Positions 11,151 through 46,112 of a stretch of 64,000 bases of DNA are shown one piece after another. The first letter of the stretch is position 1. Every line of letters begins with the position of its first letter. The position numbers and the translations under genes were made by a program. The notes beneath the pieces were generated by a model that searched no databases, had not been told where the DNA came from, and saw only the letters and a list, made by a program, of their open reading frames with translations. Origin of the DNA: Brevundimonas subvibrioides ATCC 15264 (GTDB lineage Bacteria; Pseudomonadota; Alphaproteobacteria; Caulobacterales; Caulobacteraceae); the NCBI RefSeq assembly GCF_000144605.1, contig NC_014375.1:1984001-2048000 (forward strand), given 5' to 3'.

Positions 11151-11543
11151 ATGGCCCGCAGTCAAGCCGCCGAGGAGCGGCAACAACTAGACGTGCATGT
11201 TGGTCGCCAACTCATCGCCGCTCGGACCCTTATGGGTTTGAGCCAGTCCGATGTCGGTCGGTTGGTAGGCGTGACGTTTCAGCAGGTTCAGAAGTATGAG
11301 AGAGGCACGAACCGGATTTCAGCGTCGGTTCTGTGGACGCTGGCCGAAAAGCTGAACCTCCCGGTCACTTACTTTTTTGAAGGGCTCGATGAGGGGACGG
11401 TAAGGACCCCTGACTTCGTGTTCGCGAGCCTGGGCAAGGTCGGTGTCGAAATGGCGGACGCGTTCGCGAAGTTGAGCCCCAAACGCCAGCGCCTTCTGCT
11501 GGATTTGGCAAGGTCATTCGCCAGTTCCGACGACAGCCGATGA
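11151..11543 (+). CDS. XRE-family helix-turn-helix transcriptional regulator
   Basis: A 130-aa Cro/C1-type DNA-binding protein. The HTH covers about residues 17-72 (LMGLSQSDVGRLVGVTFQQV then KYERGTNRISASVLWTLAEK). The C-terminal helical region (MADAFAKLSPKRQRLLLDLA) probably dimerises. CAGGAAAACA precedes the ATG. Such small XRE proteins are common in alphaproteobacterial accessory regions and prophages. The target genes are unknown, and no adjacent operon depends on it. Confidence 0.85.
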   Translation: MARSQAAEERQQLDVHVGRQLIAARTLMGLSQSDVGRLVGVTFQQVQKYERGTNRISASVLWTLAEKLNLPVTYFFEGLDEGTVRTPDFVFASLGKVGVEMADAFAKLSPKRQRLLLDLARSFASSDDSR

Positions 11544-12456: not shown

Positions 12457-13083
12457 TCAAAGGTCGATCTGCTCAGAAATCTGCAGCGCGTCGTCCACTT
12501 CGATGCCGAGATATCGGACGGTGCTCTCTAGTTTTCCGTGGCCGAGCAGGAGTTGGCAGGCGCGTAGGTTTCCGGTCTTCTTGTAGATCAAGGCCACCTT
12601 CGTGCGTCGAAGGCTGTGGGTGCCATAGGCGCTTGGGTTGAGGTCGATCATCCTCACCCAGGCATCTACCAGCCGAGCGTACTGCCTCGTGCCTATGTGC
12701 TGTCCATCTCGGCTGCGACTAGGAAACAGCCAGTCGTCGCGCCGTCGCCCTTGGCGCTCCAGCCAGTGAGCCAAAGCTTCCCTCGCGGCTTCCGTGATCT
12801 CGAACGGCACCGGCCTACCGGTCTTTTGCTGCACGATCGTCGATCGTTGCCGAATGACGCCGCCCTGAGCGATGTCGCCGAGCCGGAGCTTGACCAAGTC
12901 ACAGCCCCGCAGTTTGGCGTCCAATGCGATGTTGAACATCGCCAGATCTCGGATCGATCCGACGGATTTGAGATGCTGTCGGATTGCCCAGATGTGCTTT
13001 GGCTTAAGCGGGGCTTTGGCTCCGGTCATTCGGCCAGCGTTCCAAGGCTTGCGGGGTAAACGAAAGAGATCGGGCTGGCTCAT
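12457..13083 (-). CDS. Tyrosine recombinase/integrase, catalytic domain only
   Basis: A 208-aa site-specific recombinase. The catalytic residues are visible: the first Arg in DAKLRGCDLVKLRLGDI, the H-x-x-R in THSLRRTKVAL, the second His in LLLGHGKLE and the nucleophile Tyr in STVRYLGIE. The N-terminal core-binding domain of full integrases (about 100-150 aa) is missing; only about 30 residues precede the catalytic domain. The ATG of MSQPDLFRLPRKPWN is chosen because upstream residues are not protein-like. It resembles the short orphan integrases found in many alphaproteobacteria. No tRNA or attachment-site duplication was seen next to it, so mobility is unproven. Confidence 0.8.
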   Translation of the reverse strand: MSQPDLFRLPRKPWNAGRMTGAKAPLKPKHIWAIRQHLKSVGSIRDLAMFNIALDAKLRGCDLVKLRLGDIAQGGVIRQRSTIVQQKTGRPVPFEITEAAREALAHWLERQGRRRDDWLFPSRSRDGQHIGTRQYARLVDAWVRMIDLNPSAYGTHSLRRTKVALIYKKTGNLRACQLLLGHGKLESTVRYLGIEVDDALQISEQIDL

Positions 13084-13206
13084 GGCCACCTCCCACGATC
13101 GACGCCCCCTCGTCAGGATACGCTCCAAACGGCTCAGATGCGCCACGAGCGGACATTCGTCCGATCGTCAAAAGGAGAAGTTCAAGGTGTCACCTAGTTG
13201 TGACGG

Positions 13207-29537: not shown

Positions 29538-30203
29538 ATGAACCGAGTCCATCGCCCCGGCGACGACACGCAAACGTTCGATCCGCTCGCCGTCGAGAAC
29601 ATCGGCGTGATCCTTGGGATCGAACTGGTGCAACAGCCGCTGCACCGGCTTCCGCCGGAGCCGTTCGAGGGGGCGGGCGTGTATGTCCTCTATTACAGCG
29701 GCCCCGAGGTCGCCTATGCGGGCCTGCGGGACTTGGATCAGGCTCGGTGGCAGTACCCGGTCTACATCGGCAAGGCACTGCGTCGAAACGCGAAGCAGGG
29801 GTTCAATCCCAAACCCACGACCGAGAAAGCCATTCATGGGAGGCTGAGCGAGCACGCCGCCTCCATCCGGGCGACATCGAGTCTCGACATCGCAGACTTC
29901 CGCTGCCGCTACCTCGTTCTGAACGACGCTTACATAGGCTTGGCAGAATCTGTGCTGATCACTCTCTTCCGCCCTGCTTGGAATGGCATGGGCTTTGGCA
30001 GCAAGGTGGTGGGAAAGAACCGCACAACGGGCACGGTGTCCCTGTGGGACTCCTTGCACCCCGGCCGGGGTGGTCGCCCAGCCGGCGACGGGCGTCAAGC
30101 GGAGGCGGCGGACCGTATCACCGACAGCGTGCGGCAGCTTGGCGAGGAACCAACCGATCCGAGAACTCGGTGGATGCTCGAGCGGATCAGACGCTTCCTC
30201 TAG
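29538..30203 (+). CDS. Eco29kI-family GIY-YIG type II restriction endonuclease
   Basis: A 221-aa enzyme. The GIY-YIG core reads as GVYVLYYSG (about residues 47-55) and YPVYIGKALR (about 73-82), with the downstream NPKPTTEKAIHGRLSEHAAS and ADFRCRYLVL, the metal-binding Glu in LAESVLITLFRP and the WNGMGFGSKVVGK / LWDSLHPGRGG end. This layout is that of Eco29kI, which cuts CCGCGG. Whether this protein has the same specificity cannot be read from sequence. The gene is convergent with, and overlaps by 17 bp, the cytosine methyltransferase gene, its likely protective partner. The ATG at 29538 gives the usual family N-terminus. Confidence 0.85.
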   Translation: MNRVHRPGDDTQTFDPLAVENIGVILGIELVQQPLHRLPPEPFEGAGVYVLYYSGPEVAYAGLRDLDQARWQYPVYIGKALRRNAKQGFNPKPTTEKAIHGRLSEHAASIRATSSLDIADFRCRYLVLNDAYIGLAESVLITLFRPAWNGMGFGSKVVGKNRTTGTVSLWDSLHPGRGGRPAGDGRQAEAADRITDSVRQLGEEPTDPRTRWMLERIRRFL

Positions 30204-31320
30204 CCTCGACACCGTCGAGTTGCGCGCGCACGGACTGGGCAACGATTTCCGCCAGTCGAACAGGCACGGCGTTTCCGAGCTGGCGCATGGTTTCACCCCA
30301 CGCACCGTGGAACAGGAAATCGTCCGGGAAGGTCTGGAGCCTCGCGCTCTCGCGCACCGAGAAATAGCGTACCGACCCATCCGGCCGACGCAGCATGTTC
30401 TCGCCACCAGGCACGCCGTGGACCCCAGCCTTCAGGGTCTTGGACGGTTGATCCAGGGGGCTTCCGGTATGACCTGGATAACTCCGGGCACCGGGAATGA
30501 AACGGTGATCCGGAAAGGCCTTCGCGGCCTCGGGGCGAGTCTGGGGATCAGGTAGGCCGACCAGCGCGTCGCGGACCGTCAACCATGGCTGGCTTTCGGG
30601 CCTCTCCTTGGGCGGCACCACGAGCAGTGGTCGGTTGTTCCTCGCGACTTTGTGTTGGTCCCAGTAGTCGCCCTCGGGCCCCTGCGCCCAAGCGAGCGCT
30701 CGGGCCGAATGGGTTTCGGCGGGAAAATTCCACTCCGTGCTCAGGTCGGAGCGGAAGCCGACGATGAACACTCGCTCCCGCTTCTGCGGAACGCCATGAT
30801 TGGCGGCGTTCAGCAAGCGCAGCACGACGTTGTAGTGCAGCCCCGCGTGCGACCCGCTGGTTTCGTGGCGCTCGAGACGGGCGAGATGGTCCAGCCAAGG
30901 CTCCCCGGCCCTCGCCTCCATTTCGGGGTGGCGAAGCTGGAGCCGGATGTACTCGAGATAGTTGGCGAACGCCTGACGGGTCAGGCCCTTCACGTTCTCG
31001 AATATGAAGGCCTTGGGTTGCAGCTCACGGACGGCGCGGATCGCCTCGGGGAACATGTCGCGGCGGTCGAGGAAGGCGTTGTGCTTGCCGCCCATCGAGA
31101 AGGGTTGGCAAGGCGGCCCGCCGGAGACCAGCTCGATGTTGGCGAGGTGGTCGTAGCTGAACTCGCGGACATCCCCGCGATGGACGGGCCAAGGCTTGTT
31201 CTCAAGCAAGGTTTCGCAGGCCCACCGGTCCCATTCGACGACGGCGGCGGGTTCGAACCCCGCTCGGGCCACGCCGATCCCAAGGCCCCCCGCGCCCGCG
31301 AACAACTCCACGGATCTCAT
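30187..31320 (-). CDS. C5-cytosine DNA methyltransferase (DruM-like / cognate of Eco29kI-type enzyme)
   Basis: A 377-aa m5C methyltransferase. Motif I, ELFAGAGGLGIGVARAGFEP, opens the protein. Motif IV, GGPPCQPFSMGG, holds the catalytic Cys near residue 70. Motif VI is ENVKGLT, motif VIII is VPQKRERVFIVGF, then the variable target-recognition region, motif IX (RESARLQTFPDDF) and motif X (QLGNAVPVRLAE). All catalytic elements are intact. Its start overlaps the vsr stop (ATGA), placing it last in the minus-strand defence operon, while its 3' end overlaps the convergent restriction endonuclease gene. It may protect the host from that enzyme, act as DruM of Druantia type II, or both. Confidence 0.92.
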   Translation of the reverse strand: MRSVELFAGAGGLGIGVARAGFEPAAVVEWDRWACETLLENKPWPVHRGDVREFSYDHLANIELVSGGPPCQPFSMGGKHNAFLDRRDMFPEAIRAVRELQPKAFIFENVKGLTRQAFANYLEYIRLQLRHPEMEARAGEPWLDHLARLERHETSGSHAGLHYNVVLRLLNAANHGVPQKRERVFIVGFRSDLSTEWNFPAETHSARALAWAQGPEGDYWDQHKVARNNRPLLVVPPKERPESQPWLTVRDALVGLPDPQTRPEAAKAFPDHRFIPGARSYPGHTGSPLDQPSKTLKAGVHGVPGGENMLRRPDGSVRYFSVRESARLQTFPDDFLFHGAWGETMRQLGNAVPVRLAEIVAQSVRAQLDGVEARGSV

Positions 31321-31727
31321 CGAAGCAAGTCCCTTACCTTGGTCGCGACCGCCTCGGGGTCGCGCAATTCACATTCCCACACCGTCAGAACCCGCCAGCC
31401 TGATTCGTTCAACCTTTGTTCGACCGCGAGGTCGCGCTCCCGGTTGGAAGCGAGCTTGGGCTCCCAGAACTCCAGGCGTGATTTCGGCAGCCGGACGAGC
31501 TTGCAGGCAGGGTCAGGGTGTCGGTGCCAAAAGCAGCCGTGAACGAAAATCACGGCGCGGCGCCGGACGAACACCAGGTCAGGCCTACCCGGCAGGTCCT
31601 TGCGGTGGAGCCGGTACCGGTAGCCGAGGCCATGCACGAGCCGGCGGACGGCCAGTTCCGGCTTTGTGTCCCGCCCGCGGATGCGGGACATGCGGGTGGA
31701 GCGCTGTTGGGGGCTCAAGGTGTCCAT
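31317..31727 (-). CDS. vsr: Very-short-patch-repair (Vsr) endonuclease
   Basis: A 136-aa nuclease that nicks next to T:G mismatches formed by deamination of 5-methylcytosine. Family features are intact: STRMSRIRGRDTKPELAVRR at the start, the catalytic Asp in GRPDLVFVRRR, the zinc-site HGCFWHRH and NRERDLAVEQRLNESGW, then VLTVWECELRD. ATG 31727 (MDTLSPQQRSTRM) is preferred to the longer frame because it is the usual family start. Its stop overlaps the methyltransferase start by four bases. Pairing with an m5C methyltransferase is the normal arrangement. The stretch 31728-31889 before it has no gene. Confidence 0.92.
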   Translation of the reverse strand: MDTLSPQQRSTRMSRIRGRDTKPELAVRRLVHGLGYRYRLHRKDLPGRPDLVFVRRRAVIFVHGCFWHRHPDPACKLVRLPKSRLEFWEPKLASNRERDLAVEQRLNESGWRVLTVWECELRDPEAVATKVRDLLR

Positions 31728-31889
31728 CGTGTCCAAGCCATGAGCCGAGTTTGGATTGGGAAGTCCAGGCCGTGCAGCCATCCGATGGCGCGAGTGAAGG
31801 CCGCGAGTCCCGGACGCCCGCCGTGCCCCTCGCGCGCCGGGATGCTGTGCTTCCCGCCCCTCCCTTTCGGGGGGATGGCGGGACCCACA

Positions 31890-34800
31890 TCAGAATGAAA
31901 GGCCCGCGATTTTCTGGAATGGTCGCCGCGCCAGTTCGAAGCTGTCGATCAAGCGAACCGGACCGGGGTGAAGCCTGTGCATCTGATCAATGAGCGGCGA
32001 GATGACACCTTCAACGCGCCAGAGGGGGTGGTGTATCGCGATCACGGCGTCGCCACCCGTGCGCCTCAACCTCAGGGCGGGAAGTGGACCACTGCTGATA
32101 ACCTCTAGGTCGCTCGTTCCCCTCGCCACGCGTTCCAGGGCATCATCCGCCATGCTGCGCCAATCAACGAGTTCGGGCGCGCTGAAATCCCCTTCGGCCC
32201 CGGCTGTGTAACCGGGATCGACCAAGGCCCGGGCGAAGGAGAGGCCCAGGCGCCAGTCTAGAAGGCCGTGATAGCTTCGGTTGCCATATCTCTGGAGGCA
32301 CTCATAGCAAGCCTGATCGCAAGACTGTCGATGCGCCGTGGTCATGAACTCGCCCAGCGGCCAAGACGCGCCATCTCCGACAATGCTTGAGAGTAGGTCG
32401 ATCGCCCACGGCCTTTCCGGTGTTTGGGCAAGACGTCGCGACAAACCGGAGCCATTCACCAGCGTGTCGGCGATCTGAAGCATGGGCCGCTTGACGCCGT
32501 CGGGCTGGTAAAGCCGAGGCGGAAGAATATCGAATTCGCCCGGATCGACGTCCAGCTCCAGGGCGGCCCGATCGACCAGCAAGAAGCACGATGTCAGGGC
32601 CGCCGCCCTGACGGCGACGCGCTCGTCCGCGCCAGCGACCCGCGAGATATCAAGCAGCGGATGCATCACGGCGGGCGTCAGGAACAAGCTGTCCGTGGTT
32701 TTCCTGGACGCAAGCCAGCCGGAGACGGGTTCCGCATCCGGGGTCCAGTCGGGACTGCGCAGCGTTGAGGCATATTCGGTTTCCAACGCCTGGTTCGAGA
32801 AGGTCATCCACGCGCTTGGCTTGGGAGCCGCGCGCTGCCGCCCCTGCTCGAAGGAGAAACCCGCCGATTGCAGGGGATTCGGGTCATAGCCCGGGTTGAG
32901 ACGAACGATCTTGGCCGTTCTCTCAAGACTGACGGCGAGGTTGCTACCCTCCGCGCGGACCGGTCGGACATCCGACGCTTCCGCGCAGACAATGCGCGAC
33001 CGAACGATTCTCAGTTCTTCCTCACCGGTGCGTTTGGGCTTGAAATCGGTCCTATACGCGGCCGGAGATATGCAGTGCTTGAACGCGTCGCGAACGATCG
33101 CGGCGCCACACGCCACGCAGGTCATGTCATCGGGTTGATCGGCGCGAGTCCACCCGCCACAGCCATCGCATCTGGCCATCCACCATTCATCGTCATGCGC
33201 CGACCTCTGGTCTTGGCCAGGCATCACCCACGCACCGCGCTTTTGGGGCTTGGGAAGGGACGAAGTGAGACCAACGGCGGTATGAACGCGCTTGTCGCGA
33301 ACCAACGACGCACCCGGCGAAAACTCGTAAATCGCGAGGTCCGAATCGCGGTCGGTCGTATCCCAGTCGAGATCGTCGGGCCCCGACGAATGGAGCCCCA
33401 GATACAGGGGGCGGACGCGGGTCGGCATGCCATACATCGGTAACAGCCCGCCCTCGGCCAGCGCGTGAGCCACGCCGATATCCCACCGTCCTTCACGCGC
33501 GATAACGTCGGATATCGCGGCCATCAGGACATTGACCTCGAGCGCATCCTCCATTTTCGCGATCAGCGCGGGGGGCAAGTCGCCCGCGACGAGGACAACG
33601 GCGGCGTCTCGGGCCGCGACCGTTGCGCCAAGCGCATCGCGAAGCTCATCGCGCCAGGGCGAGGCGTTATCCTTGTAGTCCGCGACTAGGACGAACTCCC
33701 CGTGAATGTCTGGTGGTTGGACGTCATAGCCGCGATAGCGCCCTTGGTGCTTCAGGCGGAGATACTTGAACGCCGCCTGAAGCCAGGCCTTGCGGACAAC
33801 GCGGAGCGGGATGTCCTCATAGCCGGCGGCCAAGAAGGGCGGGGGTGGCGCGTCTCCGGTGATCCTCTCTGGATGCCGGAAATAGTGCAGGTCATGGCTA
33901 CGGCTACGACAAACGGTGACGACGATCGAGAACGCCTGTCCGCGCCGACCCGCCCGCCCGACTCGTTGCTGGTAGTTGAAGCGCTGTGGCGGCATGTTCG
34001 CTTGGTAGACGGCCTGCAGCGGCCCAATGTCGATCCCCACCTCCATCGTAGTGGTGACGCTCAGGAGGTCGATTTCCTTGCCGAGTTTTGGCAGCCTCGC
34101 CGCCTGTCCAGCCCCTTCCTCGACCAGGATGCCGCGGAAACGACGAAGACGCTCCGCGCCGTTTCGCGTCTGCCCGGTCAGTTCCTCACTACGAAGACGG
34201 AAGGGTTCCTCCGCGCCGGTGCCCGCGCGATCGACACGGTGAGCGAGGAAATTGTGCCGCCACAGATCCTTCGCCACCCCTGCGGCCGTGGCGGGAAGTG
34301 GGTCACCGCATCGAGTGCAGACCTGAGCGCCACGATGAAGATGTGCCCGGTCACAGCGCGTGCATCGCCAGAATGGCGTGTCCGCCCTCGCCAGCCTCAC
34401 GCCCAGTGAGAACAGCCGGACCACACCACCATTGTGCCCCAGGTCCGCTTGCCTCAAGCGGTCAAGCGCGGTGTTGAGATACTGATCACCATTTCCAGGC
34501 GAGGCCGCCTCGCAGAAGCGACGCACCCGATTTCCCACTGGTACGTCGGCCGCTGAAGACCACTGCTTGATTTGGCTGACGTCCACGAAGCGCGATCCAT
34601 CCACCCGGTAGGTGTCCGCCAAGACGCGAAGCAGCGCGTCAAGTTCGTCACGCTCCGCGCTGTATTCCCCGCGCGTGAAGAAGGTGGGATAGCCGAGACC
34701 CGCCTCCTCGAATGAAAAGTAGGTCTTGTTGAAGAGCGTGTCATGCAGCGCCTCGCGCTGCTCTTCCGCGATCTCGCGGCGTTTGCCCTGGATCGCGTTG

Positions 34801-37754
34801 GCGTCCAGCGCTCCCGAGGGCCTCGCCCATTTGAGATTTTCGCCATCCATGGTGAACAGTCGCCACCACTCATCATCGGAGGCGACGCTGGAATCGCTGG
34901 GATGGATGCCGAGACGGACGAGGCGGGAGATCAACTGCGCCATGGGGGGGTCGGCGGCCGGCGTCGTCGCGAGATACGCGGTATCATCCGGATCCTGCGC
35001 GAGGGCCGTGAGCGGCTCGGTCTCGATCGCCAGCGACTCCTTCTGGGTCAAAATCGCCTTCAGCCGCGCAGCCTCGGTGTAGTCCATCTCGGCGGCGGCG
35101 GCACGCATGGCCTCTTCGACGGTCGCCCGGTCCTCCGCCCGATAGTCCGCGTCGATCCTCTCGCGCGTCAAGCGCACGATCACATCCCGGATCAGGGCCC
35201 TGAAGTGATCCGCCTCGAGTTCCACCGCGGCTCTCGCCGCGTCTTGCCGGCTGTCCGAGAAGACGATCGCCTTTGGCGAAACCGCCGGTCTCGGCGCGTG
35301 AAGTACCTCGAAAAGCTCGGTGGCGAGCAGCTGGGATGTCTTCGCGAAACCCGTGCGGAAATTGCGCAGCGGAGAGGATCGCCCCTGCGATCTGAGAACG
35401 TATGAGGTACCGCACGCCGGGCAGGCGGCGGGTGTCGCCGAGCCTCGATCACCAAACGCGCGATCGCGCGCGTCCTTGTGCGAGGCTTGGGTCGACCGAT
35501 TGAAGACGAGCCCTCGGACCACGTCCTCGTTCAGGCGATCGCGCCATATTCGCGCGCCAAACGGATCGAGATAGGCCTCGTCCCACCTGGGCCGGCTGGC
35601 GTCCCGGCCGCTCATAGTCTCTGGAGTCTCCGCGCCCGCCCGGCTTGTCGGCCAGAATATCGCGTACTCTTGGTGGCTGAGATCCTCGAACTCCGTGCCG
35701 GACGCGCCGAACGGAAGCGCCTCAAGGTTGGCCGAGGACGGGAGCAAGTCTATCGCTCCACCCGCCCCGTTGGCCGAACGCATGCCCCCCACGAAGAGCT
35801 CGCCGCAGGCCTCACAGTACAGGGTCTCGATCAGGCGCCGGGGCGGCCCGTCCGTGCCCGTTCGAGCCAGACCCGACCCCCGTTCGATCGACAGGGATGA
35901 ATAGGCGACCTCGCCATCCTCGCCCCGGGAAATCGTCGCGAACAAACCCTCCAGCGCCCGGAAAAAGAAATGCACGCGGAACGAAGGCGTGGTGGCCGAG
36001 ACCCTAGCCTTCCGGCCGGGTTCGGACGCGAGCACATCGCCCAGCGCGCGAGCTATCAACAGCCCGCGAAGCGGGCGTAGATCGGGACCGCCAAATATTC
36101 GAACCGCGAGTTCGCTGGCCGCGCGCGCCCTGAGACCGTCTTCCCTCCGGCAAGCGGATAACAGGACAGCGGCTGCCGCTTCCGCCAGATCGCGTGCGCG
36201 CTGATCAAGTTCAGGCGCGGCGCCGCCCACGGCGGCGAGAGCCCGGGTAATGCCGCTGTCGAGCGCGTCGAGGCTCGGTGCTCGAAGAACCGCCGCCGCC
36301 TCCCCGCACGCGTCCGCCAGCAAACCCGAAAATGGCGCGGGATCGAGGATCGCCGACCGCTCGACACCGGCCTCAGGTTCGCCAGGCACCACGCAGTTGG
36401 ACCAGAAGGCTGGTCCTTCCGCGCCAACGCCGGCGGCCGAGAATGTGCCGTTCTCGCCGAAGAAGTCCCAGAGATACTTGAGCGATGCCTCGCCGCCGAC
36501 GCCATCGATCGGAAGCGAGGCGCTGGAGGCGAGGATCCGCAGCTTGTGGCGGTGGGCGGGATCATCAAGCCCAAGCCTGTTTATGAGCATTCTCAGAAGT
36601 CCGGCGACCTCCGAGCCCGACGAGCCGCGAACGAGATGCAGTTCATCAATGACAAGGTAGAAGTAGGCGTCGTCGTTCGCCCGCAGCCAGGACCTAGTCT
36701 GCTCGAGGATGGGTTCCTCGACCTCCCGTGCCATCATCGCGTTCAGCATCGATGAGTTGGTCACCAGGACGTCGGGGGGCGTCGCTTGGATGTCCCAGCG
36801 GGTGTTGAGTTCCGCTCCATCGATCGCCGGGAAGAGAAAACGCGTTTCCTCCTCCACATCGCGACCCAACTTCGCCGCCTGCTCGCGATCGTAGGTTTCG
36901 GCCAATGCCTGGCCCTCGGCGATCGCCCTAAGATGTTCGCGGTTTCTCTTTAGACGCCGCTGCCGGGCACGCTGCTCCGAGGTGTCACCCGCCCGATACG
37001 GATGGCGATTGAAGCCGGTGCTCGGAGTTTGGCTGTTGTAGCGGCCAAAATAGATGAGGTTTCCATTGAACCGGTCCCGGCAGGTTTGCCGCGCCTCCTT
37101 GGAATCCAGTGTCTTGCGCAGACGGGTAAGCTGGTCCTCGACCAAGGCGTTCATCGGATAGAGAATGAGCGCGCGGACCGCCTTGGGGCGATGCGGGCTC
37201 TCGGCGCGGCGCGCGGGTCGGAAATCCGCGCTGTCGGACTCCCACCAATCCTCGGCCCCAAGGGGAGCGGATGGCGCGGGCCAGCCAACGGCCTCGCTTG
37301 AGATCTGCGCCAGGATGGGGAGGAGAAAGCTCTCGGTCTTGCCCGACCCGGTGCCAGAGGTAACGATGCCTGGCGTTCCGGGCCGAAGGCCACGCTCGAG
37401 CATCCGTGCCTGGTGTTCATAGGGAGCGAAGGCCGGCCGGCGTCGCCAAGGCTTTCCGCTCACATCCTCACCCTCGAAAAGCCCGGATCCGGCCAGCTCC
37501 GTGAAGGCGATGCGTGCCTCGCGGGACAAGGGGTCTAGCGCGCCGGGGGCCTCGATCAGGTCCTCCAGCCGTTGCGGCGACGAGCGATACCGGAGCACGG
37601 GCTCGATCATCGCCTCGGCGCACATGCGTCCGGCGGTCGAAAGGAGCTCGCGGCGCGCGTCAGCGACAGCCGGTGAGCGAATCTTAAATGCCGTATCGAG
37701 GTAGGCGACAAAGAAGTCGCGCATGCGCTCGAACGCCCCGATCGGATCGTACAT
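31890..37754 (-). CDS. druE: Giant DEAD/DEAH helicase with MZB/DUF1998 domain, DruE-like
   Basis: A 1,954-aa superfamily-2 helicase-like protein. Walker A TSGTGSGKTESFLLPIL lies near residue 134, motif II DELH near 369 (LVIDELHLVRGSSGSEVAGL), the second RecA domain has TTTMEVGIDIGPLQAVYQAN and motif VI QQRVGRAGRRGQ lies near 1260. Several zinc-ribbon cysteine pairs occur (CEACGELF, CPACGTSY, CTRCDRAH with CTRCG, CDGCGGWT with CVACG). The C-terminal MZB/DUF1998 cluster CDQACYECLQRYGNRSYHG is near 1810. Size and fusion match DruE of Druantia. ATG 37754 overlaps the preceding stop by one base (TGATG). A longer ORF start at 37859 lies inside the preceding gene and is not protein-like. Confidence 0.85.
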   Translation of the reverse strand: MYDPIGAFERMRDFFVAYLDTAFKIRSPAVADARRELLSTAGRMCAEAMIEPVLRYRSSPQRLEDLIEAPGALDPLSREARIAFTELAGSGLFEGEDVSGKPWRRRPAFAPYEHQARMLERGLRPGTPGIVTSGTGSGKTESFLLPILAQISSEAVGWPAPSAPLGAEDWWESDSADFRPARRAESPHRPKAVRALILYPMNALVEDQLTRLRKTLDSKEARQTCRDRFNGNLIYFGRYNSQTPSTGFNRHPYRAGDTSEQRARQRRLKRNREHLRAIAEGQALAETYDREQAAKLGRDVEEETRFLFPAIDGAELNTRWDIQATPPDVLVTNSSMLNAMMAREVEEPILEQTRSWLRANDDAYFYLVIDELHLVRGSSGSEVAGLLRMLINRLGLDDPAHRHKLRILASSASLPIDGVGGEASLKYLWDFFGENGTFSAAGVGAEGPAFWSNCVVPGEPEAGVERSAILDPAPFSGLLADACGEAAAVLRAPSLDALDSGITRALAAVGGAAPELDQRARDLAEAAAAVLLSACRREDGLRARAASELAVRIFGGPDLRPLRGLLIARALGDVLASEPGRKARVSATTPSFRVHFFFRALEGLFATISRGEDGEVAYSSLSIERGSGLARTGTDGPPRRLIETLYCEACGELFVGGMRSANGAGGAIDLLPSSANLEALPFGASGTEFEDLSHQEYAIFWPTSRAGAETPETMSGRDASRPRWDEAYLDPFGARIWRDRLNEDVVRGLVFNRSTQASHKDARDRAFGDRGSATPAACPACGTSYVLRSQGRSSPLRNFRTGFAKTSQLLATELFEVLHAPRPAVSPKAIVFSDSRQDAARAAVELEADHFRALIRDVIVRLTRERIDADYRAEDRATVEEAMRAAAAEMDYTEAARLKAILTQKESLAIETEPLTALAQDPDDTAYLATTPAADPPMAQLISRLVRLGIHPSDSSVASDDEWWRLFTMDGENLKWARPSGALDANAIQGKRREIAEEQREALHDTLFNKTYFSFEEAGLGYPTFFTRGEYSAERDELDALLRVLADTYRVDGSRFVDVSQIKQWSSAADVPVGNRVRRFCEAASPGNGDQYLNTALDRLRQADLGHNGGVVRLFSLGVRLARADTPFWRCTRCDRAHLHRGAQVCTRCGDPLPATAAGVAKDLWRHNFLAHRVDRAGTGAEEPFRLRSEELTGQTRNGAERLRRFRGILVEEGAGQAARLPKLGKEIDLLSVTTTMEVGIDIGPLQAVYQANMPPQRFNYQQRVGRAGRRGQAFSIVVTVCRSRSHDLHYFRHPERITGDAPPPPFLAAGYEDIPLRVVRKAWLQAAFKYLRLKHQGRYRGYDVQPPDIHGEFVLVADYKDNASPWRDELRDALGATVAARDAAVVLVAGDLPPALIAKMEDALEVNVLMAAISDVIAREGRWDIGVAHALAEGGLLPMYGMPTRVRPLYLGLHSSGPDDLDWDTTDRDSDLAIYEFSPGASLVRDKRVHTAVGLTSSLPKPQKRGAWVMPGQDQRSAHDDEWWMARCDGCGGWTRADQPDDMTCVACGAAIVRDAFKHCISPAAYRTDFKPKRTGEEELRIVRSRIVCAEASDVRPVRAEGSNLAVSLERTAKIVRLNPGYDPNPLQSAGFSFEQGRQRAAPKPSAWMTFSNQALETEYASTLRSPDWTPDAEPVSGWLASRKTTDSLFLTPAVMHPLLDISRVAGADERVAVRAAALTSCFLLVDRAALELDVDPGEFDILPPRLYQPDGVKRPMLQIADTLVNGSGLSRRLAQTPERPWAIDLLSSIVGDGASWPLGEFMTTAHRQSCDQACYECLQRYGNRSYHGLLDWRLGLSFARALVDPGYTAGAEGDFSAPELVDWRSMADDALERVARGTSDLEVISSGPLPALRLRRTGGDAVIAIHHPLWRVEGVISPLIDQMHRLHPGPVRLIDSFELARRPFQKIAGLSF

Positions 37755-39823
37755 CAGCTTTCCCCAGCGCCGCCGTGACGCAAGCGGCTCGCGGATTTCA
37801 GAAGAAGGTTGGCAAGCGATCCATCGGTTGGCGCGAGCGCGCCTCGCCCCTTGCAGCATCGCAGGAAGTCCGAGAGTTCACCGGCGATCGACTTGGCGTC
37901 GTCGGCCTTGAACGTCACGCTCAGGGACGACTCCAGCGCGGAGACTCTCGCGGTCCAGCTCGTCGACGTGGCGGGCCCATTCATGATTTCAGGTATCAGT
38001 GTGAGTGGAGAGGGCGGACGCGACGGGCTCGTGTCGATCACTTCGCAGTCGTCGAAGACCAATGGGAAGAGCTCCCCCGCCCGCAGCTGGGTGAGGTTCA
38101 TTTGGCTGGCGTCCGCCTCGACGACGGCGATGAACAATAGGTTGGGCGGAAAGCCGTACCGCTGCGGCTGTCGCTGGGATCGCGCCAGTTCGGGCAGCCA
38201 GAATCCGGCGGAGGCGGGATCAAGGTCATCGAGAAGCACGACGACCGGATCTGGTCGGGATCGCGCGCGCTCGAACGCCTCCTGAAGCGGCGCCTTGTCT
38301 CCCCGCGCCCCTCGCGGGGTCAGATCGGTGATCGAAAGCAGCGTGGGATCGGTCATGACGGACAACGGCATTTCGCCTCCGGCGACGGCGAGCCAGGCCT
38401 CGGCGAACTCGCGGGCGAACGGCCCGATGAGCACTGGCAGTTCCCGGGCCCTGAGGGCGGCGTCGATTATCAGGAGCCGCGGGTGGCCAGGGTTGATGGC
38501 CGGCCCCGCCGCGAACAGCAACGGGCCAAGGTCGGCGGCGGAGATCGGACGAGCGGCGGGGAGCGCTATCGTGGGTTCCGGCGAACGCTGGTCCACATTG
38601 GACGCAATGGGCGCCTCGGACTCCCTGCTCATTCCTCCCACGACGAAACCCGAGACCCCGATCCAGTCGGCGAGGAGGCGCGCGGGTTCCGACGCGGCCC
38701 TTTGAATGACGGCGTCAACTTGCGCCTCCAGCGCGCCGACATTGTCGGCTCGAGCGGACCTGAGGAGATCCGCTTCAGCTCCCAGCTCCTCGATTTCGGC
38801 TCGGAGTGCCTCGCGTCGAGCCTTGGCCCCTTCAATCTCCTCCTGCAGCGAAGCCTGTTCGACCCGCAGCCGGTCCCGGGCCGCGCCTTCCAATTGCTCG
38901 ACAGCCGCCAAGGCCTCGCTCTCGAGCTCCGTGGTAATCGCTGCTCGCCGTCGGTCGATCTCGGTCCTGAAGGGTTCCTGCTCGACGATCAGTTCGAGGA
39001 TCGTGGCCGCCGCGCCCGTGATCGTTTCGGCGGATTCAGCCAGGTTCGTGGCCCGCGCCATCGCGACCTTGGCGTCGTCGGCGCGAAGCGCGGACACCCC
39101 CGGCATCTCGGGCGCGAGCGCCCGGAGGGCCTGGGCCGCCGCTTGGGCTTTCGGCCGCTGCGGACCGTGCGGGATCCAGCGCTTCAGGTCGGCCGCCAAT
39201 GTTTCCAAGAACAGCGTCGGCGGGAGCCAGTTGCGCGTCTCGCCGCTGGCGGGGTGGATGGGAGGAAGGACAAATTGACCGCCCGGCGCGGGGATGCCGC
39301 AAAGCTCTTCCGGCGTTCCGATCAGTACCTTGAGGTGCTTCAGGTTCAATGAGGGCGCGGGCCTGAAGCGCCCCTCCTCGTCACGCTCCAATTCGTTCAG
39401 CACGACCCACCGGTCGTTGAGCTCGGGAACCGCCGCGCCCGCCTTTCCAGCGGTCGCGCCGACGAACCCCTCTTCCGTCACCAGCTGGCGCAGCTGCTCG
39501 ATCTCCAAGGGTTCCATCCCGACGATCAGCTCGACGGCGGGCTTCGACTGGATGGCGCTGTAGACATCCTTGTCGACCGCCTCGCCGCGAGCGTTTGGCG
39601 CGACGCGGAAAATCCACAGAGAGCCGTTCGCCGCGTATCGCAAGTCCGCTTGGACCGTGAACACGAGACCTTCGTTCGGGAACCATGTCCGATCGACCAC
39701 GCCGTCCCAGCGACGACCCGTCTCCGAATAAAGCAGCGGCTTCAGGCGCGCGAAATTGTGCTGCGCGTAGTCGACCTGGCCGACGAAATGAAACCTGGTG
39801 TACTCCAACTTCGACTTGCTCAA
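37754..39823 (-). CDS. druF: DruF-like coiled-coil/degenerate ATPase protein of the Druantia operon
   Basis: A 689-aa protein. The N-terminal half is beta-rich and unrecognised (FHFVGQVDYAQHNFARLKPL). A long coiled coil follows at about residues 285-375 (EALRAEIEELGAEADLLRSA is one part). The C-terminal part is AAA-like, with a Walker-B-like VVVLLDDLDPASAGFW, but the P-loop position reads PVLIGPFAREFAEAWLAVAG without GxxxxGKT. It probably does not hydrolyse ATP by the usual mechanism. The start is TTG 39823, overlapping the upstream stop, with GGAGCCTCTCG before it. The name rests on gene order and size in Druantia type II; the assignment of F versus G is by position, not by domain. Confidence 0.6.
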   Translation of the reverse strand: MSKSKLEYTRFHFVGQVDYAQHNFARLKPLLYSETGRRWDGVVDRTWFPNEGLVFTVQADLRYAANGSLWIFRVAPNARGEAVDKDVYSAIQSKPAVELIVGMEPLEIEQLRQLVTEEGFVGATAGKAGAAVPELNDRWVVLNELERDEEGRFRPAPSLNLKHLKVLIGTPEELCGIPAPGGQFVLPPIHPASGETRNWLPPTLFLETLAADLKRWIPHGPQRPKAQAAAQALRALAPEMPGVSALRADDAKVAMARATNLAESAETITGAAATILELIVEQEPFRTEIDRRRAAITTELESEALAAVEQLEGAARDRLRVEQASLQEEIEGAKARREALRAEIEELGAEADLLRSARADNVGALEAQVDAVIQRAASEPARLLADWIGVSGFVVGGMSRESEAPIASNVDQRSPEPTIALPAARPISAADLGPLLFAAGPAINPGHPRLLIIDAALRARELPVLIGPFAREFAEAWLAVAGGEMPLSVMTDPTLLSITDLTPRGARGDKAPLQEAFERARSRPDPVVVLLDDLDPASAGFWLPELARSQRQPQRYGFPPNLLFIAVVEADASQMNLTQLRAGELFPLVFDDCEVIDTSPSRPPSPLTLIPEIMNGPATSTSWTARVSALESSLSVTFKADDAKSIAGELSDFLRCCKGRGALAPTDGSLANLLLKSASRLRHGGAGES

Positions 39824-42333
39824 CGAGAGGCTCCACGGTTGACGCGCGCCCAGCGCCAGATTGGCAGGACCTCCACGGATGACCCGCTCGCGAACGCCAT
39901 TCCAGGTCCCCGCCCGCGGCCCGCGGGGCGCGGGCGTTGGAAGCGGCTCGAATCAGGTCGGTCCATCCCCATGAACTCGCGTATCATGGCCTCGACGCAT
40001 GGCGTTGTTTTATAGGCGTATCCGCCATCGAACGGCCCAGGGGGCACGCCCGTGGCGAGCCTGAGCCAGCGCGCCACGGGTAATGGCAAGAATACACCGG
40101 GCACGTTCGCGGTCAGAAGTCCGTCCCGGATATCGAAAGGCGCGACGCCCGCGAGGCCACACGCGTCCAGGAGGGCCAGGTGGCGGTGAGTCCAGTATCG
40201 AGGCTCGCCCTCACTGGCCTGAACAAGCCAGACCGGCGGCGCGTCCTCCGCCTCCCTGCGGCAAAGGCTCAGCTGAATCCCTCGGTCGGCGAGGCGGGTG
40301 TCGGCCATGCGGACGAGTTGGCGCGCTCCGTGTGTCGAGCCGTCGGCGTTCGGCACGGCGTCACGCGGGCGAACGTGTCCGGCCAGGTCGGGTGAGATGT
40401 ATTCGCAGGTGACCCCCACCTCCGCCGCGAGCGCGAGGAGGGCCTCCCGGTCTCCCTCGACCGACAGGAGAGGCAATGACCAATCCCCGACGCCCGGGCC
40501 AATGGACACGCCCAGGCCAAGTCTGTCGGCGATGCCCTGAACGCGAGAAGCCAGAACCTCGTTGATCACACCGTCAAGACGTAGCCGGCAAACGTCCTGT
40601 TGGGGAACGAGGACGGCTCGGGCGGACCGCGCTATCGCGGCACCACCGCGCCAACCCCTCACGCGCAGGGGCTCTATCACGCCGGCTTCGAGAAGCGCGC
40701 GCAGTATGGACCACTTGCCAGCGGCGTCCGCCTTCGGAAGCGTGTCCACCAGTTCCAGCAGGCCAGAGAGCGGCATCACCCAAGGGCGGGCAGCCAAGTA
40801 TTCCACGAGGTCGAGCAGCCCCTGCTGCGGGCAGGCTGTCGCGGCGCTCTCATGGTCCTCGAAGCGGGTAGCAACGGCTTCCGCGCGAGTCGGCGCAAAC
40901 CCCGACGCTTCCTCGTCAATGAGAAATCGGTCCGGAAGCTCTTTGCCCAGCACCGGCGCGAGCGCCGACCGGCGTAGGGAAAGGGATCGCACGATGTCGC
41001 CGCAGGTGGCCTTGACGCTAACTTGGGCGTGTCCTTCGACCGGGACGGTTGGAGTAATCAACCATTCACGCGGCCCGCTCCGCTGGAGTTCCAATTGTTC
41101 CGCGACGGCGCCCGACAGCGTGACGCTCTCGACGGGCCCCGTCGTGAGCAGTCGAATGGGGAATGAGGGGCGTGACAACCGGCCGCCATCGATCCTCGGG
41201 ACGCCGGCGAACCGAACGTCGATCAGATCGTCGTCACTGACCGCATCCCGGACGGCGGTTCCAGCAACGAGATCGACGGCCGTGGTGAAGGCCCACCCCG
41301 GTGCTTCGCTAACCACGGCCCGATCCAGTTGAGCCAACAGGCTCGCGCTGTGTGTTTTCTCGCGGATGAGAGCGGCTTGGGCCTCACGACCGGCGGACCG
41401 GCCCCGGCCTACCCACGTCCATTGGCCCCAATCGATCTCCCGCAGAAGCACGGGAGATCCGTTGGTCAACAGGTGGCGGAGACCCGGCGGGGATGCCGCC
41501 TCAACCCGACTTAGCGTCGTCGGCTCCCCGTCCATGGCGATCAGCTGGTATTTTCCCCATTCGTCGCTGACGACCCGAAAGGCTTCCGGGACGTCGGTCG
41601 GACGCCAAGTCTCCACCACCATTCGCCAACCGCTCCAGAAACGGTGGTCGGTCAGCGCTCGCGCGCCCGACCGCCAAGCGATCTGAAAGTCGGTGAAGGT
41701 CTCCCGAAAGGTCGGTGAGTATCGGTCCACTCGTCCGCCGAGCCATCGCATCACCGCCACCGGGTGGTTGGGATCCGCGAGTCCGCCCTGCTCAAGGTCC
41801 CGCTTCAGGCGCCGACCATCCTGTCGGGATGGGAAGGTCAGCTCGATGGCGTGACCAATTTGCGTTCGGTGCCTAGGATCGGGGAGGACTAGCGGTCGTA
41901 GTCGACGATCCGGCGGCGCGGCCGCGCACGAACTTTCAAGTCTTCGCCACAACGTCGGAAGGGCGGCGCAATCCATGATGATTGCGTCCCAGCCCATCAT
42001 TTCCCGCAGACGTTCCCGGTAGTCGTTGGCCTCGGAACCGGCCGCCTCGCTGGCCGCGATGCAGCAAAGGATGAGGAACGCGGGCAGGCTCGCGCCTGGG
42101 CTGTCGACGCCACTGAACCACCGCACCATCTGCGGGCGAGCCGGAAACGCGGAGGTGAACATCGCGAGAGCGGCATCCTCGGCGACATCGACACCGGCAC
42201 GGGCGAGAGCCCGCGCGAGCAGCGCTCCGCCCGCGTCTATGGTCGAGACAGGCCTGCCCTCACCTTCCCGATCCCGAAAGATTTCCTCGACGAGCGCGTC
42301 GCTCCATCGAGAAAGCGTGATGTCTACGCCCAT
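39820..42333 (-). CDS. druG: DruG-like protein of the Druantia operon
   Basis: An 837-aa protein with no domain I recognise. It contains several hydrophobic but not membrane-like helices early (FLILCCIAASEAAGSEANDY), a beta-rich middle (VTLSGAVAEQLELQRSGPRE, GHAQVSVKATCGDIVRSLSL) and a C-terminal region with RYWTHRHLALLDACGLAG and VPGVFLPLPVARWLRLATGV. ATG 42333 is chosen; a GTG start at 42366 would add 11 residues. It is the first gene of the minus-strand operon and its stop overlaps the next start (TTGA). The name is given from its position beside the DruF- and DruE-like genes and the methyltransferase. Confidence 0.6.
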   Translation of the reverse strand: MGVDITLSRWSDALVEEIFRDREGEGRPVSTIDAGGALLARALARAGVDVAEDAALAMFTSAFPARPQMVRWFSGVDSPGASLPAFLILCCIAASEAAGSEANDYRERLREMMGWDAIIMDCAALPTLWRRLESSCAAAPPDRRLRPLVLPDPRHRTQIGHAIELTFPSRQDGRRLKRDLEQGGLADPNHPVAVMRWLGGRVDRYSPTFRETFTDFQIAWRSGARALTDHRFWSGWRMVVETWRPTDVPEAFRVVSDEWGKYQLIAMDGEPTTLSRVEAASPPGLRHLLTNGSPVLLREIDWGQWTWVGRGRSAGREAQAALIREKTHSASLLAQLDRAVVSEAPGWAFTTAVDLVAGTAVRDAVSDDDLIDVRFAGVPRIDGGRLSRPSFPIRLLTTGPVESVTLSGAVAEQLELQRSGPREWLITPTVPVEGHAQVSVKATCGDIVRSLSLRRSALAPVLGKELPDRFLIDEEASGFAPTRAEAVATRFEDHESAATACPQQGLLDLVEYLAARPWVMPLSGLLELVDTLPKADAAGKWSILRALLEAGVIEPLRVRGWRGGAAIARSARAVLVPQQDVCRLRLDGVINEVLASRVQGIADRLGLGVSIGPGVGDWSLPLLSVEGDREALLALAAEVGVTCEYISPDLAGHVRPRDAVPNADGSTHGARQLVRMADTRLADRGIQLSLCRREAEDAPPVWLVQASEGEPRYWTHRHLALLDACGLAGVAPFDIRDGLLTANVPGVFLPLPVARWLRLATGVPPGPFDGGYAYKTTPCVEAMIREFMGMDRPDSSRFQRPRPAGRGRGPGMAFASGSSVEVLPIWRWARVNRGASR

Positions 42334-42730: not shown

Positions 42731-42776
42731 TCTCCGCATGGCGGAACGGTTTGTTCCCGGTTTATGGAGTTTGGAT

Positions 42777-44195
42777 ATGCGCGACGACAACGTTTTTGAT
42801 GCCTGGATCGATCTGAACAATGTCAGCGATCACACGCACGAGCTGCTGGAGGCCTTGGCCAGACATTACGAGGCCATGGGAGCATTGCTCCCGGATGAGG
42901 CTGCGGAGGAGGTTCGAGACGTTCTTCGAAAAGTGGATGCGGAGGCTTGGGCCCGTTCTTTCGGTAACGGTGAGGAGCGCCTCGCGGAAACCCGGAACCA
43001 GGTCCCGAGCGTCTTTTTCAAGGACAGCCTCGACCGGGTTGATAACCTGTACTTCGAGCTCGGTGGCTTCGCCCACGCCCTCTATTGCTACGCATCGAGC
43101 GGGATGGTCGAGCCGGGCTATCGCGACACCACTCGTGAAACGATGTCGACATGGATCGAGGGTTGGCTGGAGCGCGCCAACAGGATCGCCGAGACAACCC
43201 CAGCATCGGTGCACTCGCTGGACTTCTTCCGTCTGATTGCCATGGGCGCCAACGCGCGTTGGGCGCTCGACAATGGCCGGCCCATCACGGGCGACCAGCT
43301 CGCCGCGCTGTCGGCGCTGGCCCGGAACGAGGGAGCGACTTCGACCGCGGCCTATGAGCGGGTTCGCAAGACGGTCCAGAATCTGGTCGCGGAAGCCTTG
43401 GGCAAGTCGTCGAACAAAGACCTTGAGGTTCTGCCCAACCGCTCGATCTCCCCAGCCTCCGCGATTAGCTGGCTCCGCGAACAGGCTCCGGACTATTTCC
43501 CCTCGATGTGGGCGCTCCCGGAGCCGATCCAGGCGGCCGAGGCCGAAGACGAGACAGAGGCTTTCGTGTTCGTCCCGGTAGCCAGCGCACACCTGCATGT
43601 CGAACCCAAGCTGTTCACCCCCGACGCCCGCCTTGAAGAAGGCTACGTCGTCGGCGCGAGCTCCAAGGTGATCGGCGACTACTGGGAAGCGCTGGATGCG
43701 TTGAGTCACATGCGCGCCCCTCGCTTCCGGCACCCTCGGGCGCATGCCGCGCTCGGCCCCCTAGCCTGCGAGGATAGCTGGGTCCGCGTTCCCCGCGGCG
43801 AAATCGAAGCCCAGCTGGCTGCCCTCGCGACGCCGGGCGAGGAACATGTCGACGGTCCAACATCGGAGATCGTCGAGGCGATCAAGGCCGATCTTCGCTT
43901 CAGGCCGCTCGCGTTGGGCCACAGCCGCAAGCTCTTTCGTTTCCAAAGCGTGCGAACGGGCAAGGCCATAGCGGTCGAGGCGCGCAAGGGACCGCCTGTC
44001 GTCTACGTCGCGCGTCGGGATGGTGAAAATCTGCCCTCCCTGGCCTCAAGCGCGCGGATCGTGGGCGGCGCTCCGTCCGGGCGGAACAGCAACTTGAACT
44101 CGATTCCGACCTTCAAGAACGAGGAGTTGCTTGCCTTCCGGCCGGCCGCCGCGTCGGACCTGGCTGGCCTGCTGGATCATCTCTCCGCCGCCTGA
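42777..44195 (+). CDS. Uncharacterised defence-island protein (472 aa)
   Basis: I do not recognise this protein. It starts MRDDNVFDAWIDLNNVSDHT and is soluble and acidic. Its N-terminal half is helical (about residues 1-165). The middle segment LTGDQ-like ITGDQLAALSALARNEGATS, with NRSISPASAISWLREQAPDY, looks like a helix-turn-helix or domain-boundary region, and the C-terminal half is mixed. No transmembrane segments, nuclease or NTPase motifs are visible. It is divergent from the Druantia operon, has its own promoter, and is closed by a strong terminator. It is therefore a separate transcription unit between Druantia and the DUF262 enzyme. Confidence 0.7.
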   Translation: MRDDNVFDAWIDLNNVSDHTHELLEALARHYEAMGALLPDEAAEEVRDVLRKVDAEAWARSFGNGEERLAETRNQVPSVFFKDSLDRVDNLYFELGGFAHALYCYASSGMVEPGYRDTTRETMSTWIEGWLERANRIAETTPASVHSLDFFRLIAMGANARWALDNGRPITGDQLAALSALARNEGATSTAAYERVRKTVQNLVAEALGKSSNKDLEVLPNRSISPASAISWLREQAPDYFPSMWALPEPIQAAEAEDETEAFVFVPVASAHLHVEPKLFTPDARLEEGYVVGASSKVIGDYWEALDALSHMRAPRFRHPRAHAALGPLACEDSWVRVPRGEIEAQLAALATPGEEHVDGPTSEIVEAIKADLRFRPLALGHSRKLFRFQSVRTGKAIAVEARKGPPVVYVARRDGENLPSLASSARIVGGAPSGRNSNLNSIPTFKNEELLAFRPAAASDLAGLLDHLSAA

Positions 44196-44297: not shown

Positions 44298-44450
44298 ATC
44301 CTTGGTCCGACGCGACGACCCGTCCCATGATCCGGTAGCCTCGGATGCTTGTCGCGAACCACGATTCACGCCAAGCGAGTGAGGGCTCGTCATGCGGGCT
44401 CAGCGTCCAGTCATCGCGACTGGTTCAGTCAAGACCCAGGCGCCTCCCTC

Positions 44451-46112
44451 ATGCAGCTCTCCCCCCTCCACCTATCCGTCGCCAAACTGCTCGATGGTCG
44501 ACTCTTCCGGATACCGGGCTACCAGCGGGCCTATTCTTGGCAGAGCCGTCAGCGCGCCGATCTGTTCAAGGACATCGAGGAGGCGCACCGCTCGGGCCGG
44601 GAGCACTTCATGGCTACGGTGGTCGCCCTCGCGCGTGAAAAGCGCGTCATCGCCGCCGACGAGCTGCAGGTCGTCGAACTTGTCGATGGCCAGCAACGCG
44701 TCACCTCGCTCGTAATCCTGATCAAGGCGATCGAGAAAGCACTCGGCGAGACGGACGGTGCGGAACGCAAGAGCAAGCGCGACCTTCAGGATCTTCTGGT
44801 CAAGGGAGACGACCATTCGCTGGTGCTTCTGCAGACCAACCACGACAGCAGCGACGTCTTCCTGAACTATCTGCGAAAGGGAGAACTGACCGGATCGGTC
44901 GCCACGGGCTCCGACCAAAACCTCCTGAACGCGATGCGGGAGAGCGAGGAAGTCGTGGCGCGCTGGCAGGCCGCCGGAGAGCTGGTCGCGCTACTTGGGA
45001 CGATCCGGAACAAGCTCTCGTTGATCTACCACGAGCTCTTGGACGAAGCGACGGTCTACCGGGTGTTCGAGGTGCTCAACAGCCGAGGCCTGGATGTGCG
45101 TTGGATCGACAAGACCAAGAGCCAGCTGATGGCGTCGATCTGCGAATACGTGGACGACCCTGCGTCTCGCGCCGAGGGGCTGCGGGAGATGCAGACCATA
45201 TGGCAGGACATCTATCGCATCCTTGGCCTGCGGGAGGGCTTGGGCACCGAGTCCCTGAGGTTGGCCGGCACCTGGTCGGCGCTCAACCAGCCGAACCGCA
45301 TTGTTTCGGATGAGGACGCCTCGCGCGAGCTCGTGCGTCGCGCGGGCGAAAAATTGCCGTCCATCATAGAGGCGGCCCAGTGGCTCCGTCAGGTCGTCCG
45401 AGAGGTCAATGAGCTGAACGGGGATGTGCGGCTGTCCGCCGTCACCAAGATCGCCCATGCCCGGATGCTGGCGATCGCCATCAAGCTGCGCAAGTTCGAC
45501 CCCGCGACCCAAGAGGGCCTGCTCGGAGCCTGGGAGAAGGTCACCTTCCGGATCTTCGGGCTCGCCGGCCGCGACACTCGCCACATGGTTGGAGACTATG
45601 TGCGGCTGGGTTTCGACATCTTGGCGCGCAAGATGACCTCGACGGACATCGCCAAGGCGCTCGCCAACCTCGGCGAAGGGTTCGAGATCGACGAGATCAT
45701 TGACGACGGCGACTGGTCTGAATGCTACGGCGGATGGAGCGAGGAACTACGTTACCTGCTGTTCCGCTACGACGAGCGGCTCGCGAAGGACGCCGGCGAG
45801 CAAATCAACGCCGCCCAGTGGACCAAGATCTGGTCAATGGACGCCTCGAAGTCGATCGAGCACATTGTCCCCCAGAGTTCGGACAAGCGGTACATCCACC
45901 ATCTCGGCAACTTGACGATGCTGCCGCCCGGAGTGAACTCCTCGCTCAAGGACAAGCCGCCCGCCAAGAAGTCGGATCGCTACATCGAATGCGGGATCAA
46001 GGAGACGGTCGCGGTCGGCAGGCTGGTCCAAGAACGGCGGGGATGGACCGAGCAGGATGTGCATCAGCGCGCGCAACGGCTTCTTGAGTTCGTCCGAACC
46101 GAATGGGGCTAG
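44451..46112 (+). CDS. DUF262-DUF1524 protein, GmrSD-like type IV restriction enzyme
   Basis: A 553-aa single-chain protein. The N-terminal DUF262 (GmrS-like) has RIPGYQRAYSW near residues 20-30 and VVELVDGQQRVTSL with the DGQQR NTP-binding and cleavage motif near residue 79. The C-terminal DUF1524 (GmrD-like) His-Me nuclease has KSIEHIVPQSSDKR near 469 and HHLGNLTMLPPGVNSSLKDK. Such proteins use NTP to cut foreign DNA carrying modified bases. The ATG at 44451 gives the family N-terminus; the ORF extends to a TTG at 44349 without support. It lies beyond a terminator and so is expressed separately. Confidence 0.88.
   Translation: MQLSPLHLSVAKLLDGRLFRIPGYQRAYSWQSRQRADLFKDIEEAHRSGREHFMATVVALAREKRVIAADELQVVELVDGQQRVTSLVILIKAIEKALGETDGAERKSKRDLQDLLVKGDDHSLVLLQTNHDSSDVFLNYLRKGELTGSVATGSDQNLLNAMRESEEVVARWQAAGELVALLGTIRNKLSLIYHELLDEATVYRVFEVLNSRGLDVRWIDKTKSQLMASICEYVDDPASRAEGLREMQTIWQDIYRILGLREGLGTESLRLAGTWSALNQPNRIVSDEDASRELVRRAGEKLPSIIEAAQWLRQVVREVNELNGDVRLSAVTKIAHARMLAIAIKLRKFDPATQEGLLGAWEKVTFRIFGLAGRDTRHMVGDYVRLGFDILARKMTSTDIAKALANLGEGFEIDEIIDDGDWSECYGGWSEELRYLLFRYDERLAKDAGEQINAAQWTKIWSMDASKSIEHIVPQSSDKRYIHHLGNLTMLPPGVNSSLKDKPPAKKSDRYIECGIKETVAVGRLVQERRGWTEQDVHQRAQRLLEFVRTEWG

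Follow-up and report, generated by a model that had tools for sequence, protein, structure and literature searches.

A five-gene operon of Brevundimonas subvibrioides assigned to Druantia type II, with a vsr gene beside its methylase gene

Which defence system is encoded by a run of five genes built around a very large helicase, and what place do a cytosine methylase and a mismatch endonuclease have in it? We addressed this question for a locus of Brevundimonas subvibrioides ATCC 15264, in a stretch of 64,000 nucleotides (the window, to which all positions below refer). The initial annotation, made from the sequence alone, had proposed Druantia type II, a system that Doron et al. reportedly described in 2018 as DruM-DruF-DruG-DruE.

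Layout and identity of the operon

Open reading frame analysis of the window placed all five genes on the minus strand at 30187-42333, reading in one direction as proposed. In transcription order they are:

39820-42333, minus strand: druF, 837 aa from the ATG at 42333 (longest ORF to 42366, 848 aa)
37754-39823, minus strand: druG, 689 aa, TTG start
31890-37754, minus strand: druE, 1954 aa from the ATG at 37754 (longest ORF to 37859, 1989 aa, first ATG)
31317-31781, minus strand: vsr, T:G mismatch nicking endonuclease, 154 aa
30187-31320, minus strand: druM, cytosine-5 DNA methyltransferase, 377 aa

Homologue alignments begin at the shorter starts of DruF and DruE, which agree with the lengths first given for these two proteins (837 and 1954 aa). 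Three of the four junctions overlap (F/G by 4 bases, G/E by 1 base and Vsr/M by 4 bases, ATGA), in keeping with the earlier remark that most do so by 1-4 bases; the sole junction without overlap, DruE to Vsr, is a gap of 108 bases.

The profile search that the initial annotation had itself named as its test matched all four defining proteins in PADLOC (DruM2, DruF2, DruG2 and DruE2), with the genes in the right order. The helicase matched DruE2 (PDLC00014) at 2143 bits over 1922 of 1928 profile positions, and the 837/848-aa protein matched DruF2 (PDLC00019) at 156.5 bits (E 2e-46, residues 14-791). The match of the 689-aa protein to DruG2 (PDLC00025) is weak but significant (49.8 bits, E 5e-14) and consists of two stretches, the best at 449-569; its gene holds the same place as that of DruG in related loci, with phmmer scores of up to 433 bits (locus L014). 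The names DruF and DruG had at first been rested on position only, and while the assignments stand, this basis is outdated, as profiles match both proteins and the fold supports DruG. The methylase scored 396 bits against DruM2 and 423 bits against the generic MTase_II profile; because the generic profile scores higher, the DruM label leans on context. Pfam and NCBIfam agree on a Vsr, an m5C methylase and a DEAD/MZB helicase.

A different helicase system, be it DISARM, Dpd, ARMADA or Druantia type IV, would be the obvious alternative, and the helicase does match DpdJ (55 bits) and DrmA (28 bits, in the helicase motif region) weakly, which membership in the YprA family would lead one to expect. 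These are outweighed by the top-scoring DruE2 and DruE4 profiles, with DruE2 at 2143 bits, and the presence of DruG2; the assignment to DISARM DrmA/DrmB or Dpd that the initial annotation had named as speaking against Druantia did not occur. Among the operon proteins there was no match to the DruL, DrmB or DrmC profiles of PADLOC and no PLD domain in Pfam, so that the reported absence of a DISARM-type PLD protein holds, and no operon protein had its best PADLOC match in DISARM, Dpd or type IV (DruL). DISARM was rejected on the DrmA score and on the missing matches to DrmB and DrmC (PLD), and Dpd on the DpdJ score. Type IV, given as DruE, DruF and DruL in PMC8565338, shares homologous DruE and DruF with the window, but was rejected, as DruG and DruM are present here and no DruL was found. 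The profile scores already refute a system of another kind, which we consider vanishingly improbable.

The operon is almost certainly a complete Druantia type II system, for which PMC8565338 lists DruM, DruF, DruG and DruE as the published definition. It is also named type IV CoCoNuT, the term under which Bell et al. 2025 place Druantia types I and II (PMC12458937). As such it is another copy of a known anti-phage defence system, and the copy itself is ordinary. Like other type II loci, it has the four defining proteins, the F-G-E order and an m5C methylase adjoining the core; it differs in that DruM lies downstream of DruE, where the usual place is upstream of DruF, in having an additional vsr gene between DruE and DruM, and in its divergent DruF and DruG (~36-39% identity to the nearest relatives). 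Among 398 genomes of the order, only its own gave a full-length DruG match.

From 14.8 kb onward the window aligns with a genome of the same genus at 77-78% DNA identity, and this synteny ends at 28071, just past a TetR gene, which places the operon in a strain-specific region with 28071 as its left edge. An empty-site search against the congener did not find the right edge, and there was no DNA-level match to plasmids. Two divergent genes neighbour the operon on the plus strand. The first (42738-44195, divergent from druF) encodes a 485-aa protein of no known family, whose CARF-HEPN profile match is very weak (E 0.006) and which has a single weak relative, close to a Druantia locus (L041). 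The second (44349-46112) encodes a protein of 587 aa that has both GmrSD domains, N- and C-terminal, as in type IV restriction, and matches HEC-06/Orf5 profiles; it is likely a second defence gene, and no homologue of it was found in 80 Druantia loci. At the edge of the window, an 828-aa ORF (11-2497, plus strand) matches the C-terminal half of Dsr1 defence proteins at 95 bits and probably belongs to a further defence gene, which is either truncated or interrupted by the window end. A phage-type integrase gene (12457-13146, minus strand, 229 aa) has an HTH gene nearby (11151-11543), and nothing in positions 1 to 14.8 kb matched, at the DNA level, the 50 kb of the congener that were compared.

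The DruF-DruG-DruE core

To collect relatives, 84,980 genomes were scanned once with an alignment of DruE, yielding 80 loci. Many of these carry F-G-E as in the window, with the F-G-E order conserved in 49, and at most of the 80 a druF homologue is found in the equivalent position. The closest DruE sequences, 60% identical, come from Sphingomonas and Azospirillum, as suits an alphaproteobacterial host. Closer to home such a DruE is rare: at E 1e-100, and with its own genome counted, 3 of the 398 genomes searched in the order have one, as do 5 of 385 in the class. At one plasmid locus, of Rhizobium sp. WSM4643 (L127:13911-17188), mcrC and AAA ATPase genes adjoin the DruE gene on the opposite strand.

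DruE displays both RecA motif sets and the C-terminal cysteine cluster that had been read from its sequence: GTGSGKT (169-175), DELH (405-408), QRVGRAGR (1298-1305) and C1847/C1851/C1854 are nearly or fully invariant among 79 relatives. The helicase has solved homologues in the PDB (9wae, 1523 bits, and six more entries). Walker A and DELH are 236 residues apart, with a charged, helical-looking insert between them, and a long insert at this place is also described for type II in the work on type IV CoCoNuTs (PMC12458937). The same paper, Bell et al. 2025, reports an inactivated Vsr-type C-terminal domain in type II DruE. A comparison of the C-terminus of the window DruE with Vsr was not significant (hhalign, P 0.05), so this dead domain is without significant profile support here; we found no difference from type IV CoCoNuT. 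No HKD motif was found in DruE, and Pfam scans and motif checks recognised no intact nuclease signature in DruE, DruF or DruG.

Comparing the structures of the two large proteins, as the initial annotation had suggested, gave an AAA+ fold behind a coiled coil for the 689-aa protein and an Ig-like domain only for the 837-aa protein. The AlphaFold2 model of DruG (pLDDT 77) comprises a β-rich N-terminus, a coiled coil at ~248-390 and an AAA+ fold at 424-677, the last superposing on RavA (3nbx) with Z 10.4 and an r.m.s.d. of 4.4 across 230 residues, in a set of compared structures that did not contain McrB. The Walker A GKT is absent from DruG in all 40 aligned sequences. In the predicted model, the C-terminus of DruG is thus shown as an inactive AAA+ domain that lacks the Walker A lysine and stands behind a long coiled coil. 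In its coiled coil and its lack of Walker A, DruG resembles the inactivated, coiled-coil-carrying homologue of CnuB, a McrB-like AAA+ GTPase, in the CoCoNuT family (PMC12458937); what the model shows is an inactive AAA+ domain, not specifically a McrB-like one. The DruG profile matched coiled coils only in the PDB. For DruF, the model (pLDDT 79) contains an Ig-like β-sandwich at 378-468 (best Z 9.5, r.m.s.d. 3.3, 91 residues), and beyond this domain the fold comparison returned nothing; the DruF profile found no relative in the PDB. CnuC/McrC proteins of CoCoNuTs also have an Ig-like domain (PMC11090510), and the likeness of the modelled DruF domain to theirs is a lead. When 40 homologues each of DruF and DruG were scanned with Pfam for a remote nuclease, coiled-coil noise was all that appeared.

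Patristic distances of the three core proteins are strongly correlated (rho = 0.93 for E-F, 0.86 for E-G and 0.87 for F-G), whereas those of DruM and Vsr follow the core less closely (0.34-0.44 and 0.43-0.48, respectively) and DruM and Vsr correlate with each other at 0.10. Deeper divergence and short sequences may partly explain the lower values. Because the trees of F, G and E agree with one another and those of DruM and Vsr do not follow them, the core appears to be inherited as a block while the mark is exchanged. By these tree comparisons, DruM and Vsr are shown as exchangeable parts around a fixed F-G-E core, and DruF, DruG and DruE very probably work as one machine.

The methylase and Vsr at related loci

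DruM and Vsr both look intact. DruM matches PF00145 at 208 bits and keeps the GPPCQ, ENV and QKRER motifs; it is 61% identical to the methylase of locus L015, 48% to those of L013 and L014, and at most ~31% to any other. Vsr matches TIGR00632 at 152.7 bits and PDB entry 1cw0 with E 9e-30, and keeps E25, D51, H64, H69 and D97, key residues as listed in PMC12907096. Its gene is the only vsr in the genome (single contig, 3.45 Mb). As in the E. coli Dcm-Vsr pair, the m5C methylase and Vsr genes lie side by side with intact active sites; the window pair differs in sitting in a five-gene defence operon, with Vsr before the methylase.

Among the 49 F-G-E loci, an m5C methylase is present in 46 and vsr in 33; for the 40 with long flanks, the counts are 39 and 29. 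In 31 of the 39 well-flanked loci the methylase is upstream of DruF on the same strand, and in the other 8 it is downstream of DruE; the position of Vsr is freer. The one long-flanked locus without a methylase within ~10 kb (L026, Paracoccus) is in a genome that has others elsewhere. A second F-G-E genome (L021), with no m5C methylase at all, is a metagenome-assembled genome (MAG) whose contig ends just upstream of druF. In the loci without DruG (L061-L092), 13 of 15 well-flanked ones have an m5C methylase in the fetched stretch, type IV being defined without DruM.

These distributions bear on whether DruM and Vsr belong to the system. They could be an independent pair hitch-hiking in a defence island, with F-G-E reading the structure of DNA and not its methylation. 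Their poor congruence with F-G-E and their varying place and strand would fit this, as would two DruG-less relatives in genomes without a detected m5C methylase (L057 and L062). The type III DruE is a helicase-nuclease that acts on DNA with exposed single strands, by architecture and not sequence (PMC13192584), which keeps a structure-reading alternative alive for type II. Against it, a methylase stands beside F-G-E in 39 of the 40 well-flanked loci when each genome has only one to five m5C methylase matches, and methylases of several unrelated lineages have been taken up at this one position, which points to a need rather than hitch-hiking. We regard an independent pair as rather doubtful, and a self-mark as the somewhat better-supported role for DruM, judging from its family.

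Vsr was never found without a methylase at its locus, neither in the 33 vsr-bearing F-G-E loci nor in 11 loci without DruG, and so behaves as a repair partner of m5C would. Across 25 genomes, 22 of 27 vsr genes lie inside the ~26-kb Druantia stretches, which make up 0.4% of the sequence. By hand count, vsr is near 4 of 19 other m5C methylases of the same genomes, versus 29 of 40 Druantia loci (Fisher p 0.0003), a comparison whose loci are related to one another, so that they do not count as independent events. Of four plasmid loci that others had annotated, all have both genes. At least ten genomes with F-G-E, several of them isolates and not MAGs, have no vsr anywhere, which makes Vsr an accessory and not an obligate effector. 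In the open-literature passages on type II that we searched, a set that did not extend to Doron et al. 2018, no mention of a Vsr-Druantia association was found, and the recurrent Vsr companion may be the one point that is new to a specialist.

Could Vsr do more than repair? It might be the system's nuclease in trans, replacing the reportedly dead Vsr-type domain of DruE and cutting DNA that DruE has unwound. The lack of a recognised nuclease signature in DruE, DruF and DruG, the inactivated domain of type II DruE reported by Bell et al. (PMC12458937), the 22 of 27 vsr genes at Druantia loci and Vsr tree distances that track DruE (0.46) better than DruM (0.10) all favour such a role. It is nevertheless very unlikely, given that vsr is missing from 11 of the 40 well-flanked F-G-E loci and from the whole of those ten or more genomes, that Vsr never occurs without a methylase at these loci, and that the profile of the DruE C-terminus showed no significant similarity to that of Vsr.

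Alternatively, Vsr might mainly make the loss of DruM costly, through DNA breaks in unmarked cells, and so retain the methylase and the operon. When Caulobacter crescentus loses its solitary m5C methylase ScmA, a DNA-damage response follows that strictly depends on a Vsr-like protein (PMC12907096), and vsr and druM overlap by 4 bases in the window. That effect comes from one organism and an unlinked gene pair, however, and vsr is missing from about a quarter of the loci; as the main role this is unlikely, and it is not mutually exclusive with repair. Taking both possibilities together, it is doubtful that Vsr is a functional fifth component, whether as the nuclease that DruE appears to lack or as a tie to DruM against loss of the operon. 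Its family points instead to repair as its likely main role.

A model for self and non-self

We favour a model, at a probability of roughly 70%, in which a fixed F-G-E machine that processes DNA is combined with an exchangeable m5C self-mark made by DruM and with repair by Vsr. DruF, DruG and DruE would form a single DNA-processing complex, with DruE as its ATP-driven helicase and DruG, its AAA+ module dead, serving as a coiled-coil scaffold or regulator. DruM would methylate the cytosines of one motif in the host chromosome, so that marked host DNA would be spared by the complex and unmarked invading DNA attacked. The 5-methylcytosines made by DruM would deaminate to T:G mismatches, and Vsr would nick these, making the mark affordable for the cell.

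We know of no experimental test of methylation-dependent restriction by type II, and no description of a Druantia type II mechanism was found in the searchable literature. Profiles and a solved helicase homologue (PDB ID: 9wae) thus exist for a system whose mechanism that literature leaves unexplained. For annotation, a vsr beside druM belongs with Druantia type II in most loci. The split into a co-inherited F-G-E machine on one side, and an exchangeable m5C mark with its repair partner on the other, makes the question of self and non-self in this family directly testable.
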